Shown here piece after piece: positions 18,227-28,464 of a DNA stretch of 64,000 nt (its first letter is position 1; every line of letters starts with the position of its first letter). The translations under genes were made by a program, and so were the position numbers. Under the pieces are notes generated by a model. It was not told the DNA's origin. It saw only the letters and a program-made list of their open reading frames with translations, and did no database searches. Source of the stretch: Candidatus Nomurabacteria bacterium (GTDB taxonomy: Bacteria; Patescibacteriota; Saccharimonadia; Saccharimonadales; Saccharimonadaceae); assembly GCA_031262695.1 (NCBI GenBank), contig JAISHF010000004.1, positions 1 to 64,000 on the forward strand, given 5' to 3'.

Positions 18227-18625
18227 ATGAGCAAGGTTGTGATTGAGAAGGAGTTAGGGGCGATACCGTCAAAAGCCGAGATGGAGGTGGTGGATATTTT
18301 GGTATTGAACAACATTGTTAAAAAGTCGGTAAAGTTTTTGAAGCCTAATCGCGTAAAGGGTTCTAAAACGCCAGATTTGTTGATGGATGGTAACTATTGG
18401 GAGATTAAAAGTATTGAGAAATTGGGAAAATATACGTTGGCTCATGCCGAGCGAACTGGGTTGGAGCAGGCAGATAATTTGATATTTGATCTGCGAAAAT
18501 TGGCAATTAAACTAGAAGACAAGGCTGCACGAGAGATTCAGAAAGAGTTTGAGAAGCGCAAGGGGTGGCGAGGACTACTGATGATTGTGCGGCCTGGCGA
18601 CAAAGTCTTGACATTCCAAAAATAG
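18227..18625 (+). CDS. PD-(D/E)XK small nuclease, CdiA-tRNase-like, paralog 1
   Basis: 132 residues, no signal peptide. Core motifs are GSKTPDLLMDG (D50), YWEIKS (E59, K61) and NLIFDLR (88-90). This D..ExK pattern is that of PD-(D/E)XK nucleases, and the set resembles the tRNase domain at the C-terminus of CdiA toxins (family call from memory). The ATG is seven bases after TATAAT (18214-18219), so it is leaderless. The last codons (LTFQK) contain TTGACA, the -35 box of the small RNA that follows. Paralogs with the same design are at 23983 and 27899. No protein immunity gene is adjacent. Confidence 0.8.
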   Translation: MSKVVIEKELGAIPSKAEMEVVDILVLNNIVKKSVKFLKPNRVKGSKTPDLLMDGNYWEIKSIEKLGKYTLAHAERTGLEQADNLIFDLRKLAIKLEDKAAREIQKEFEKRKGWRGLLMIVRPGDKVLTFQK

Positions 18626-18636
18626 CTTGCTATAAT
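18608..18636 (+). promoter_or_regulatory. Small RNA promoter embedded in nuclease 1 end
   Basis: TTGACA (18608-18613) lies within the coding sequence, followed by a 17-base spacer spanning the stop codon and TATAAT (18631-18636). Confidence 0.8.
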
Positions 18637-18642
18637 ATGAGT

Positions 18643-18732
18643 ACAGAAGGTGTCGCTCTTGCTGCACAGCTTGGGCCACATCTTCTGATAGGGCGTTGCT
18701 CTTGCTGGACAGCTTGGGCCACGCCCTTTTGT
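18643..18732 (+). ncRNA. Two-unit hairpin small RNA after nuclease 1
   Basis: Unit 1: 10-bp stem CAGAAGGTGT/ACATCTTCTG (18644-18653, 18678-18687). Unit 2: GGGCGT/ACGCCC (18691-18696, 18721-18726), then TTTTGTG. The two 24-base loops match at 22 positions and share TTGCTGSACAGCTTGGGCC. Each loop can form GCTC/GGGC and a small GCT/AGC stem capped by GGAC or GCAC. Tandem structured units recall type III antitoxin RNAs (inference). Confidence 0.75.
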
Positions 18733-23925: not shown

Positions 23926-23966
23926 AGAAACACCCTCGAGCAATCCAGCAGGAGGGTGTTTCTGTA
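23926..23966 (-). ncRNA. Hairpin small RNA after nuclease 2 (shares galU terminator)
   Basis: The minus-strand promoter TTGACA (24000-23995), exactly 17 bases, TATAAT (23977-23972) has its -35 inside the last codons of the nuclease (LLTFEK). The RNA is a 12-bp stem with loop CTGCTGGATTGCTC, whose GCTGGATTGC matches the core of the other two small RNAs. No U run follows, so the 3' end is uncertain. Confidence 0.55.
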
Positions 23967-23970: not shown

Positions 23971-23982
23971 AATTATAGCAAG

Positions 23983-24372
23983 TCATTTCTCGAATGTCAA
24001 GAGTTTTTGTGATTTTGTAATAATCCAAAGGCTTTTCCATGATTTTGTAAGTTTGAAGTTTTTCGTAAGGTAGGCGACGGCTTTGTCTTCGTATATTTTG
24101 CAATGGCGGAGGTCGATTATCAGGTAGTCTGACTGTGTTAGCCCGTGACGCACGGCATGGTAGAGGGTGTATTCGCCATCTTGTTCGGGGTTCTTGATTT
24201 CCCACTTTTTGTCGTGATTTAGCTCGGCATCTGGCGAGCGCTGGCCTTCAATTTTGCTTTCTTTTAAAAATCTAATTGTCAACTTTTTATCATGCGAGAT
24301 GAGCCAGTTTGCAGTTTCAATTTCGCGTTCTTTTGGCGACGCACCATCTTGCAGGGTTATTCGATCGTTCAT
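23983..24372 (-). CDS. PD-(D/E)XK small nuclease, CdiA-tRNase-like, paralog 2
   Basis: 129 residues with QRSPDAEL (D48), KKWEIKN (E58, K60) and YLIIDLR (87-89), colinear with the paralogs at 18227 and 27899. The start ATG 24372 is seven bases after a minus-strand TATAAT. The earlier in-frame ATG 24381 lies within that box and is rejected. The final codons encode LLTFEK and contain the TTGACA of the following small RNA promoter. No signal peptide, so cytoplasmic. Identity to paralog 1 is moderate, so these are old duplicates rather than recent copies. Confidence 0.78.
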   Translation of the reverse strand: MNDRITLQDGASPKEREIETANWLISHDKKLTIRFLKESKIEGQRSPDAELNHDKKWEIKNPEQDGEYTLYHAVRHGLTQSDYLIIDLRHCKIYEDKAVAYLTKNFKLTKSWKSLWIITKSQKLLTFEK

Positions 24373-24522: not shown

Positions 24523-25173
24523 ATGACAACAAAAACAAAAGCAATTGCTGGGCTTGGCTTAGTGGCTGGGCTTGGTGCAATCGTAGCGCCGTTGGCGAGC
24601 TATGCGGATACGCACAGCACGAACTTAAATGTTACGGCAAGCGTGGCGGAAAACATCACGATTACCGACGCTGACAATAGTGCAACAGGCTTGAACTTTA
24701 CTGGTACCGATATTTCGGCTGGTGCGGTCAAGACTGGTACACACACGATTACAATTTCTACAAGTGCTACGAAAGGGTACACCCTCGCTATGTCTGCCGA
24801 CAATGCAGCATTGCGCTTAGAGAATACTGGCGCTACTGGCACATATGATGGTGCTAGTGGCTTTACGGGTGTTGGTGCTGGTACTGTGGTTGGTGCGGTC
24901 ACTACGGGTGCTTACAATGAGGCAACCTTGTCTAGTGGGGCGACTTTTGCGCCATCAACGAGCATCCCAGATACCGGGGCTTGGGGCTATCGCATGAGTG
25001 GCTGGACTGCAGACAACTATGTGTCGGTGCCGACCTCTTCGGTTGCGATCGCGGCAAGTAGCACAGCGTTGGCATCTAAGCCAACCATTGTGACTTTTGC
25101 GGCACAAGCTGGTGCGGCCACCCCAGCAGGCAATTACGGCGCAGTTATTACCTATACTGCTACGACGAACTAA
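24523..25173 (+). CDS. Secreted surface protein (WxL-like beta-rich)
   Basis: 216 residues. A signal peptide ends LASYADTHS near residue 28. The rest is Thr/Ala/Ser/Gly-rich and lacks Cys. Repeated beta-type segments and a conserved-looking end YGAVITYTATTN recall WxL-type surface domains, though only one Trp pair is present (a guess). A strong promoter, strong ribosome site and terminator suggest an abundant secreted protein. A DUF916-like protein, a family often paired with WxL proteins, lies at 26866. Confidence 0.75.
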   Translation: MTTKTKAIAGLGLVAGLGAIVAPLASYADTHSTNLNVTASVAENITITDADNSATGLNFTGTDISAGAVKTGTHTITISTSATKGYTLAMSADNAALRLENTGATGTYDGASGFTGVGAGTVVGAVTTGAYNEATLSSGATFAPSTSIPDTGAWGYRMSGWTADNYVSVPTSSVAIAASSTALASKPTIVTFAAQAGAATPAGNYGAVITYTATTN

Positions 25174-26230: not shown

Positions 26231-26301
26231 AAACCTCCTGTTTGGTATATTATAGCATACATAGTTGGCTCTTTAGATTAGTTTTATGGTATAATAGAGG
26301 T

Positions 26302-26688
26302 ATGAAAAATTATGAGAACTGGACGCCTGTAAAGGCGAGTCTGAATAGCGGCAAGCGAATGCCTTCCTATCGTGAGGGTAATGTATATTGGGCGAGCATT
26401 GGTGAGAATATTGGGTTTGAGCAAGACGGCAAAGGGCGAGCCTATACAAGACCAGTCTTGATTCTGCGTGGATTTTCGGCAGAGCTCGTGCTTGGCTTGC
26501 CGCTTAGCAGCCAGAAAAAGTCGGGCAGGTATTTTTTGCCGATTGTACTAAATGGCGAAGATGGGGTTTTGCTACTAAGCCAAATCCGAGCGATAGATAC
26601 TTTGCGACTGGGTGATAAAATCGGGCAGGTTGATCGCCAGATGTTAAAACTCATAAAAGCTGCAGTAGCAAAAATGATTTTGCAGTAA
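26302..26688 (+). CDS. PemK/MazF family toxin (mRNA interferase type)
   Basis: 128 residues. SYREGNVYWASIGENIGFEQ, RPVLILRGF, GLPLSSQKKSGRY and LLSQIRAIDTLRL match the PemK/MazF fold, whose members cut mRNA. It looks intact, unlike the remnant at 7487. ATG 26302 is six bases after TATAAT, so it is leaderless. No antitoxin ORF lies upstream or downstream. A minus-strand promoter at 26788 could produce an RNA antisense to its 3' end. Confidence 0.85.
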   Translation: MKNYENWTPVKASLNSGKRMPSYREGNVYWASIGENIGFEQDGKGRAYTRPVLILRGFSAELVLGLPLSSQKKSGRYFLPIVLNGEDGVLLLSQIRAIDTLRLGDKIGQVDRQMLKLIKAAVAKMILQ

Positions 26689-26788: not shown

Positions 26789-26865
26789 TAGGTTTTACGA
26801 GTTTGGGGCAAAAAGGGCTTGAAAAATGCTGGTGGTTAATGTAGAATATGGGAAATGGAGGTAAA

Positions 26866-27792
26866 ATGAAACGATTCGGATTGTTAGCTGGCTTGGCGGG
26901 GGTGTTGAGTGTGGTTGGTGTGTTGGGGCTGAGTGGGCAGGCTTGGGCGGAGGCAAAGATGACAATGAGCCCAGGTAGCTCGGACGCGATTGTGCTCGAG
27001 CCGGGCATGGTGCAGAGGGGAAGTTTTATGATTTATAATACTGGCGACGAAAAAATTGACGTTACGGTAACGCCGACTGCTTTGTGCGTGAATAGTACTT
27101 ATAACTATACATTTGATGGGTGCGAGGCGTCAAGTGGCACAAAAATAAAAGATTGGATGACGCTTGCAGTGGATAATACAAGCTTGAACCCTGGCGATGA
27201 GACGGAGGTTGAATATACGATTAGTGTGCCGACCACAGACCTGCCTGGCGGCTCGCAATATGCCGGAGTTACTGTGCAGTTCCAGTCTATGGGCGGCAGT
27301 AATTTAGAGGCAAAATATACATTGGGTTATAAGATTTTTGCCTATAACCCGATTGGGGCGGAGCTAAAGGCGGAGTTATTGTCGGCAAAGGTGGATAGTT
27401 TGCAGTTCAAGCGGCCACTTTCGGCACGTATGACGGCGAAAAACGAGGGGAATATTGACTTCTTTACTAAAATAAATATGACAGTGGCGACAATGGGCGA
27501 TAAAGAAGTGCATAAATCAGAGATAAACTATGTGGTGATGCCGGGCACGACACGCGAGCTCAGTACAATTTGGGATGGTGCACCGCACTTGGGGTTGTTT
27601 AAGGTTAAATACGAGGTGGTGCTAGAAAGCGTAGATGGCAAAGTGATTGACAGTAAGGTGATTGAAAAGACGGTGCTGTTGATGCCACTGTTTATGTTCG
27701 TGGTGATTTTGGTGGTAATTGCGGCGTTGATTCTCTTTGCGATTCTCCGCGTCCGCAAGGCCGCCGAATTGAAGAACGCACGGCGATACTAA
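26866..27792 (+). CDS. DUF916-like (WxL-interacting type) surface protein
   Basis: 308 residues. A signal peptide (1-28, ends GQAWAEA) is followed by an immunoglobulin-like beta domain with MVQRGSFMIYNTGDEKIDVT and LPGGSQYAGVTVQFQSMGG, a second beta domain, one membrane helix (about 272-298) and a basic tail. This order is that of DUF916/WxL-interacting proteins, which anchor surface complexes in Gram-positive bacteria. It may partner the secreted protein at 24523 (inference). ATG follows ATGGAGG. Confidence 0.8.
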   Translation: MKRFGLLAGLAGVLSVVGVLGLSGQAWAEAKMTMSPGSSDAIVLEPGMVQRGSFMIYNTGDEKIDVTVTPTALCVNSTYNYTFDGCEASSGTKIKDWMTLAVDNTSLNPGDETEVEYTISVPTTDLPGGSQYAGVTVQFQSMGGSNLEAKYTLGYKIFAYNPIGAELKAELLSAKVDSLQFKRPLSARMTAKNEGNIDFFTKINMTVATMGDKEVHKSEINYVVMPGTTRELSTIWDGAPHLGLFKVKYEVVLESVDGKVIDSKVIEKTVLLMPLFMFVVILVVIAALILFAILRVRKAAELKNARRY

Positions 27793-27874: not shown

Positions 27875-27898
27875 CGGTTTTTGTGGTATAATATGTGT

Positions 27899-28291
27899 AT
27901 GAGTAAATATGATGAACATATTTTGAAACAGGTTAATGCGTTTCCGACAAAGGCGGAGCGGGGTACTGCGGAAAGGGTGTTTGATGAATTCGGTGAGGAT
28001 ATTCTTTTTTTGGCACCGGAGCGTATATCAGGTGTTAAGACGCCAGATTTTGAAATGAGCGGCAAGAGGTGGGAGATTAAGATCGTGACTGGGGCGAGCC
28101 GCCATACAATAGAGAATAACTTTAGAACTGCCATAAACCAGTCGGGAAACATTATTTTTGATTTACGAAAATCTAAGCTGCCAAGCTCAAAGTATATTGG
28201 AGAGATAAAGCGACAGTTTAGAATGACACCGGTAGTTAAAAATTTAATTATTATTCAGAAAAATGGCGAAATGAGTGTTGACACAAAGTAA
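27899..28291 (+). CDS. PD-(D/E)XK small nuclease, CdiA-tRNase-like, paralog 3
   Basis: 130 residues with GVKTPDFEMSG (D50), RWEIKI (E59, K61) and NIIFDLR (88-90). The spacing is identical to paralog 1. The ATG is six bases after TATAAT (27887-27892), so it is leaderless. The last codons (SVDTK) contain TTGACA in another frame than in paralogs 1 and 2, yet again at a 17-base distance from TATAAT of a small RNA gene. No signal peptide or immunity gene is seen. Confidence 0.78.
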   Translation: MSKYDEHILKQVNAFPTKAERGTAERVFDEFGEDILFLAPERISGVKTPDFEMSGKRWEIKIVTGASRHTIENNFRTAINQSGNIIFDLRKSKLPSSKYIGEIKRQFRMTPVVKNLIIIQKNGEMSVDTK

Positions 28292-28306
28292 ATTGTTTGA
28301 TATAAT
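28278..28306 (+). promoter_or_regulatory. Small RNA promoter embedded in nuclease 3 end
   Basis: TTGACA (28278-28283) overlaps the last codons, 17-base spacer, TATAAT (28301-28306). Confidence 0.8.
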
Positions 28307-28312
28307 TTAATT

Positions 28313-28363
28313 ATTACGAGTGGACGCCACTGCTGGATAGCGGAGGCCAGCCACTCGTTTTTT
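28313..28363 (+). ncRNA. Hairpin small RNA after nuclease 3
   Basis: 8-bp stem ACGAGTGG/CCACTCGT (28316-28323, 28351-28358) followed by six or more U. The 27-base loop contains GCC/GGC and GCT-GGAT-AGC, with TGCTGGATAGC matching the core of the small RNA after nuclease 1. Confidence 0.8.
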
Positions 28364-28390: not shown

Positions 28391-28464
28391 TGGAGGTGCG
28401 TATGAGAGTTGCACTCATCTAGACGGTTTTGCAGACCGCTCTATAACTGCCCTAGCCACGCACC
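28391..28464 (-). tRNA. tRNA-Cys (anticodon GCA)
   Basis: Minus strand: acceptor GGTGCGT/ACGCACC, discriminator T (typical of Cys), encoded CCA, anticodon loop CTGCAAA. The T loop TGCAACT has G where position 55 is normally T. Confidence 0.9.

Follow-up and report, generated by a model that had tools for sequence, protein, structure and literature searches.

What purpose is served by a perfect promoter that overlaps the last codons of a nuclease gene and is followed by the sequence of a short hairpin RNA? The question is raised by the locus of nuclease 3 in the window, which is the whole stretch of 64,000 nucleotides that was analysed. It is likely that the gene, the promoter and the RNA form a toxin-antitoxin module, in which the separately transcribed hairpin RNA encoded downstream would bind and neutralise the nuclease.

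The nuclease 3 gene runs on the forward strand from an ATG at 27,899 to a stop codon at 28,289 to 28,291 (27,899 to 28,291), and encodes a PD-(D/E)XK protein of 130 amino acids in the CdiA_C family (Pfam PF18451, E=3e-14), with the motif TPD..WEIK and the conserved Q81. A -10 box (TGG TATAAT, 27,887 to 27,892) lies 6 nt 5' of the ATG, with no good -35 box to accompany it. The 3' end of the gene reads AGT GTT GAC ACA AAG TAA, and the TTGACA of a further, sigma70-like promoter (28,278 to 28,306, forward strand) falls across the V-D-T codons at 28,278 to 28,283, exactly as described in the sequence-only reading. The spacing of 17 to the TATAAT at 28,301 to 28,306 given there is also exact, and the -10 box is extended (TGA TATAAT). 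The predicted RNA, a candidate antitoxin of about 50 nt with a U-run terminator, spans 28,313 to 28,363 on the same strand. Its 8 bp stem is formed by ACGAGTGG (28,316 to 28,323) and CCACTCGT (28,351 to 28,358), its tip is GCTGGATAGC (28,332 to 28,341) and its T run is at 28,358 to 28,363; stem, tip and U run had all been correctly placed from the letters. The fold energy is -24.1 kcal/mol (z = -5.05 versus shuffled sequence), and the structure is backed by covariation within its class. Here and throughout the family the RNA ends and start codons are predicted, the starts having been picked by rule. Just past the RNA, a tRNA-Cys is called by ARAGORN at 28,391 to 28,464 on the reverse strand, below the Rfam gathering threshold.

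The three nucleases of this kind in the window score 53.4, 43.2, and 31.9 bits against PF18451, for which the curated cut-off is 26.6. Among 48 homologues, D50 and E59 are invariant and K61 (at least 90%) and Q81 are nearly so; in the alignment the conservation of D50, E59, and K61 is the PD-(D/E)XK pattern. An AlphaFold2 model of nuclease 3 has a pLDDT of 94, and its best PDB match by Foldseek, and the only one with E<=0.001, is 4g6v (E=8.8e-7), the CdiA-CT toxin of Burkholderia pseudomallei, which is matched by sequence too. Phage proteins that match the model structurally are CDI-toxin-like or MuF-like fusions. Other members of the CdiA_C family are listed as tRNases (PMC9990079). The domain of the present family is free-standing, at about 130 amino acids, with no delivery domain visible in the alignment. 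None of the PADLOC 2.0.0 models of known anti-phage defence proteins matched.

The source genome (652 kb, 97.5% complete) contains 12 CdiA_C-type nuclease genes, all 12 with a -10-like box and a hairpin directly 3' of the gene. For comparison across loci, 174 distinct nuclease genes were assembled, of which almost all belong to the order of the source genome (Saccharibacteria). The nuclease domain is present in 106 of 393 genomes in a sample of the order, and nearly all matches in a sample of the phylum fall within this order. Most named records belong to Candidatus Saccharibacteria, and many come from the guts of ruminants. The sole match outside the order (L250 in genome G658) has the nuclease domain and, in the readable sequence, no such promoter or RNA; part of the sequence downstream is N. 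Strong -10 boxes are found 5 to 14 nt 5' of the chosen start in 87 of 168 family genes and Shine-Dalgarno-like motifs in only 12 of the 168. The nuclease mRNA is probably leaderless, or nearly so.

The two paralogues of nuclease 3 in the window are similarly arranged. Nuclease 1 (18,227 to 18,625, forward strand; Pfam E=4.5e-11) overlaps an RNA promoter at 18,608 to 18,636, found by the promoter pattern search, in which TTGACA is in the L-T frame. This is followed by a first hairpin RNA unit at 18,645 to 18,686 and a second, with a U run at its end, at 18,690 to 18,731. The two hairpins are related and in tandem, with the tips GCTGCACAGC in the first and GCTGGACAGC in the second. On the reverse strand, nuclease 2 (23,983 to 24,372; Pfam E=1.5e-7) has its promoter, from the same search and again in the L-T frame, at 23,972 to 24,000 and its hairpin RNA at 23,926 to 23,963. 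A protein with a PemK/MazF-like toxin domain (PF02452, E 2.9e-12) is encoded between nucleases 2 and 3, at 26,242 to 26,688, and secreted or surface-type proteins (24,523 to 25,173 and 26,848 to 27,792) adjoin two of the window's modules. The proteins neighbouring the window modules have no relation to one another. Gene neighbours vary by locus across the family, the largest neighbour family being found at 21 of 174 modules; one family of secreted or surface type adjoins this number, in mixed orientations. No protein family is consistently linked to the nuclease among the 174 loci, and there is thus no obvious protein antitoxin. A tRNA gene is within 150 bp of 17 of the 174 modules, a mild excess by rough estimate.

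The promoter sequence is not in itself peculiar to these genes. Perfect TTGACA-N15-19-TATAAT promoters occur 7 times in the window, versus 0.01 expected by shuffling, and 3 of the 7 each coincide with the end of one of the three nuclease genes. Across the entire genome 35 were counted, 5 of them at nuclease stops, versus 1 in the reversed control. The organism therefore uses this promoter normally, and it is the location that is special. With controls taken from the same loci and a simple scoring, a good promoter score was found near the stop of 118 of 174 nucleases versus 16 of 173 other long ORFs. Under a strict rule, by which a promoter and a closed hairpin near the start site are both present, 136 of 173 nucleases are counted (124 on the same strand and 12 convergent) versus 1 of 78 other genes; the 37 nucleases that fail this rule include some with weak promoters.

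The position of TTGACA within codons had been taken in the sequence-only reading as a sign that its presence is not a by-product of a conserved protein tail. As an argument from frame this holds only in part, because a hydrophobic residue followed by Asp is a frequent feature of the protein tail in any case: among 110 promoters that overlap the gene, 100 have the xTT GAC Axx (V-D-T type) frame and 9 have TTG ACA (L-T), such that the frame of nuclease 3 is the commonest in the family and that of nucleases 1 and 2 the minority. Selection at the DNA level is nevertheless supported by the homologue alignment. In the 97 same-strand genes with a hydrophobic-Asp tail, the Asp codon is GAC in 69, versus 318 of 917 elsewhere in the genes (OR 4.6, p 7e-12), and the preceding codon ends in TT in 92 of 97, versus 38% (OR 30); as the homologues share ancestry, these counts are not independent events and the p-values overstate independence. 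This codon bias shows that TTGAC is retained in the DNA beyond what the protein demands. Stronger still as evidence are the promoters that have left the coding sequence. In five loci (L024, L081, L105, L147, and L173) the promoter lies wholly 3' of the nuclease stop, and in 12 loci the promoter and RNA are on the opposite strand and converge on the nuclease gene. Together, the strict rule, the codon bias and the relocated promoters strongly support the functional link between gene, promoter and hairpin RNA that had been proposed from the single locus, and homologues with random 3' ends lacking both TATAAT and hairpin were not the outcome.

Comparison across loci sorts the hairpin RNAs into classes. 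Compensatory changes are found in 12 of 13 pairs in the class of nuclease 3, in 11 of 12 in class A and in 13 of 15 in class D. In the nuclease 3 class 91.9% of cells are paired, versus 65.3% when shuffled and at most 47% with slid partners. The covariation in these three classes is accounted for by nested stems, with no pseudoknot in the covariation structure. The general plan is an outer stem, a conserved and class-specific internal loop, a variable inner stem, and a tip, the last of these being [CU]GNA[UC] in 85 of 162 RNAs versus 20.8 for shuffled loops. The hairpin is usually single, with doubles at L002 and L103; at L043 a second hairpin belongs to another class (class D). Same-strand and convergent RNAs are both included in class H, which suggests that the molecule acts as an RNA in trans rather than as a terminator in cis. 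Mimicry of tRNA by sequence is not supported, since a match to an anticodon loop with at most one mismatch is present in 72.6% of RNAs versus 76.2% when shuffled.

Among the 4227 Rfam families only tRNAs are matched within the window, and the hairpins of 16 loci have no match to E=1. A model of one window RNA (R1), searched in the 61 nearest genomes, found only genome G000 and one weak match (E 0.02), and this near-absence shows the RNAs to be highly class-specific. Another model (R3) found 12 sites, most of them at known nuclease loci. When the class A core was searched in 85,000 genomes, the sites in Saccharibacteria were mostly 23 to 93 nt past a nuclease end. At L194, L206, and L222 class A cores are 76 to 93 nt 3' of nucleases of a different type, and are perhaps a second, non-cognate RNA. 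Matches to the class A pattern in Clostridia have neither the outer stem nor a nuclease, and are apparently coincidental matches within coding sequence. A perfect promoter, hairpin and T run at G000:C1:173616-173643 (L377) is intergenic with no nuclease ORF, and may be an RNA of this kind standing alone. In viral sequences a single-protein scan gave no matches and the class A RNA pattern led to a single contig on which the module is complete; this putative viral contig (L267, IMGVR_UViG_3300050014_001054) has the nuclease, promoter and class A RNA at 1720-2100 on the reverse strand. The pattern GGGCGACC..GGCCAAGCCC was found in 96 viral stretches, of which 80 were examined; none had a nuclease, or a promoter or T run at the hairpin, and these look like chance matches.

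Each RNA has evolved with its own nuclease. Similarity between RNAs tracks similarity between nucleases (rho 0.27 for pairs below 50% identity), a value reached in 0 of 500 permutations, of which the largest gave 0.096. The corresponding values for flanks of equal length are 0.03 further downstream and -0.01 upstream. There is also an asymmetry in what is lost. The promoter and RNA are well formed in L025, where the catalytic K of the nuclease has become E, in L032, L162, and the second gene of L063, where the nuclease is broken, in L203, where it is frameshifted, and in L202 and L232, where a 3' remnant of the nuclease gene is all that is left. Intact-looking nucleases for which no RNA was found are few (L129 and L073), having set aside L096 and L144, which are near a contig edge, and L155 and L165, which are ambiguous. 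As read from these sequences, an RNA that outlasts a broken nuclease, with the reverse being rare, is the pattern of an antitoxin and its toxin.

In the proposed toxin-antitoxin mechanism the toxin would be a small cytoplasmic PD-(D/E)XK nuclease of the CdiA_C tRNase family, harmful to the cell that makes it, presumably through its tRNA, and weakly expressed from a leaderless mRNA. The antitoxin would be a hairpin RNA of about 45-60 nt, ended by a U run and overproduced from its own, stronger consensus promoter at or just past the nuclease stop codon. Its predicted outer stem, conserved internal loop, and variable inner hairpin, often with a [CU]GNA[UC] tip, would allow it to bind the cognate nuclease, which would then be blocked. 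Were synthesis of the RNA to stop, for example when a phage shuts it off or the locus is lost, the nuclease, as the more stable of the two, would be freed. The module may serve in phage defence or in addiction, going by how such systems generally work and by the one viral contig that carries it. On balance, and rather less firmly than for the module itself, we favour the view that the PD-(D/E)XK nucleases of the Saccharibacteria are a new type of RNA-neutralised toxin, each with a cognate hairpin RNA at or beyond the gene end.

A small RNA adjoining a toxin-like gene might instead act in the manner of type I systems, as an antisense RNA that prevents translation by pairing with the nuclease mRNA. 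Cognate RNAs do pair slightly better than non-cognate ones with the 5' region of their own mRNA (0.574 versus 0.5). However, the difference is very small (over the ORF the value is 0.541) and shared ancestry would produce part of it, and most of the RNAs share the strand of the gene, form closed, covarying hairpins and have conserved internal loops, which makes antisense control very unlikely. It is highly improbable that the hairpin is simply the rho-independent terminator of the nuclease gene, with a promoter that is there by chance or drives the next gene. By form, a hairpin and U run are indeed a terminator, yet an ordinary gene end would not account for a combination with a promoter that was seen at only one of the 78 other genes, for internal loops that are conserved and class-specific, for RNAs that can be convergent on the other strand, or for their retention where the nuclease is broken. 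The neighbouring genes, moreover, vary by locus.

TnpB-type loci also have a nuclease gene with a structured RNA at its 3' end, the omega RNA. Given this resemblance, the hairpin could be a guide or scaffold that directs the nuclease, or a mobile-element recognition site like the REP hairpins; the copies are scattered, some near tRNA genes (the 17 of 174 within 150 bp), and one is on a viral contig (L267). This is quite unlikely, as nearly all of the RNA is base-paired and it lacks a variable single-stranded guide, copies that are only about 30% identical are unlike the products of recent transposition, and the protein is outside the known transposon nuclease families. Delivery of the nuclease into the host bacterium or rivals as an antibacterial effector, with the RNA conferring self-immunity, is in keeping with the life of Saccharibacteria on other bacteria and with the use of this domain as a delivered toxin in CdiA_C and phage MuF-type fusions. 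It is nonetheless unlikely for proteins of about 130 amino acids whose alignment shows no delivery domain, and the role of the RNA would in any case equal that in the toxin-antitoxin explanation.

The module of nuclease, promoter and hairpin, in a dozen copies, looks like a previously undescribed form of RNA control over a toxic enzyme. If so, RNA antitoxins that bind protein have had an independent origin here, and the nuclease and RNA pairs have expanded to a dozen within one 0.65-Mb genome. Very few toxin folds are known to have such antitoxins, and an unrelated nuclease fold with a different gene order would be added to these. The many diverged cognate pairs would be a natural set in which to see what lets a short hairpin distinguish its own nuclease from a sister protein. 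Up to a dozen of these modules are retained by parasitic bacteria that are ultra-small and have reduced genomes. The modules are candidates for antiphage or addiction systems, of which no description was found for this group.

A literature search, covering open-licence papers, found no description of the module. In the type I system RalR/RalA, a nuclease toxin gene is next to a small RNA that is antisense to its mRNA. The present module is unlike this, as complementarity between RNA and mRNA is near background when cognate and non-cognate duplex energies are compared. The type III toxin-antitoxin systems (ToxIN, CptIN, and TenpIN; features from PMC5086642) are similar in that a nuclease is paired specifically with a cognate structured RNA of about 35-50 nt, a surplus of RNA is expected and tandem RNA units sometimes occur. 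However, the fold of the toxin is PD-(D/E)XK by Foldseek against the PDB, not that of ToxN, CptN, or TenpN. Type III RNAs are pseudoknotted tandem repeats in an upstream array that shares the operon promoter, with a terminator separating array and toxin gene, whereas here there is mostly one hairpin, with no pseudoknot in its covariation structure, which lies 3' of the nuclease gene under a promoter of its own or is convergent. AbiF/RCd22 of Clostridioides difficile is another non-ToxN toxin with an RNA partner; there the toxin is neutralised by direct RNA-protein interaction and the RNA ends in a terminator (PMC12373285). Such neutralisation would be shared by the present module, unlike the HEPN-like toxin, the upstream, co-transcribed RNA, and the two abiF motifs. 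The module would work as the type III systems and AbiF/RCd22 do, but it differs from them in the fold of the toxin, in gene order and in operon structure, and is therefore filed with neither. The nuclease itself is closest to CdiA-CT of B. pseudomallei 1026b (PF18451, PDB 4g6v) and SitA3, with which it shares domain family and fold. These are tRNases that form parts of delivered toxins, whereas the domain here is free-standing; and where the toxin in the 4g6v structure is complexed with an immunity protein, the candidate partner here is an RNA.
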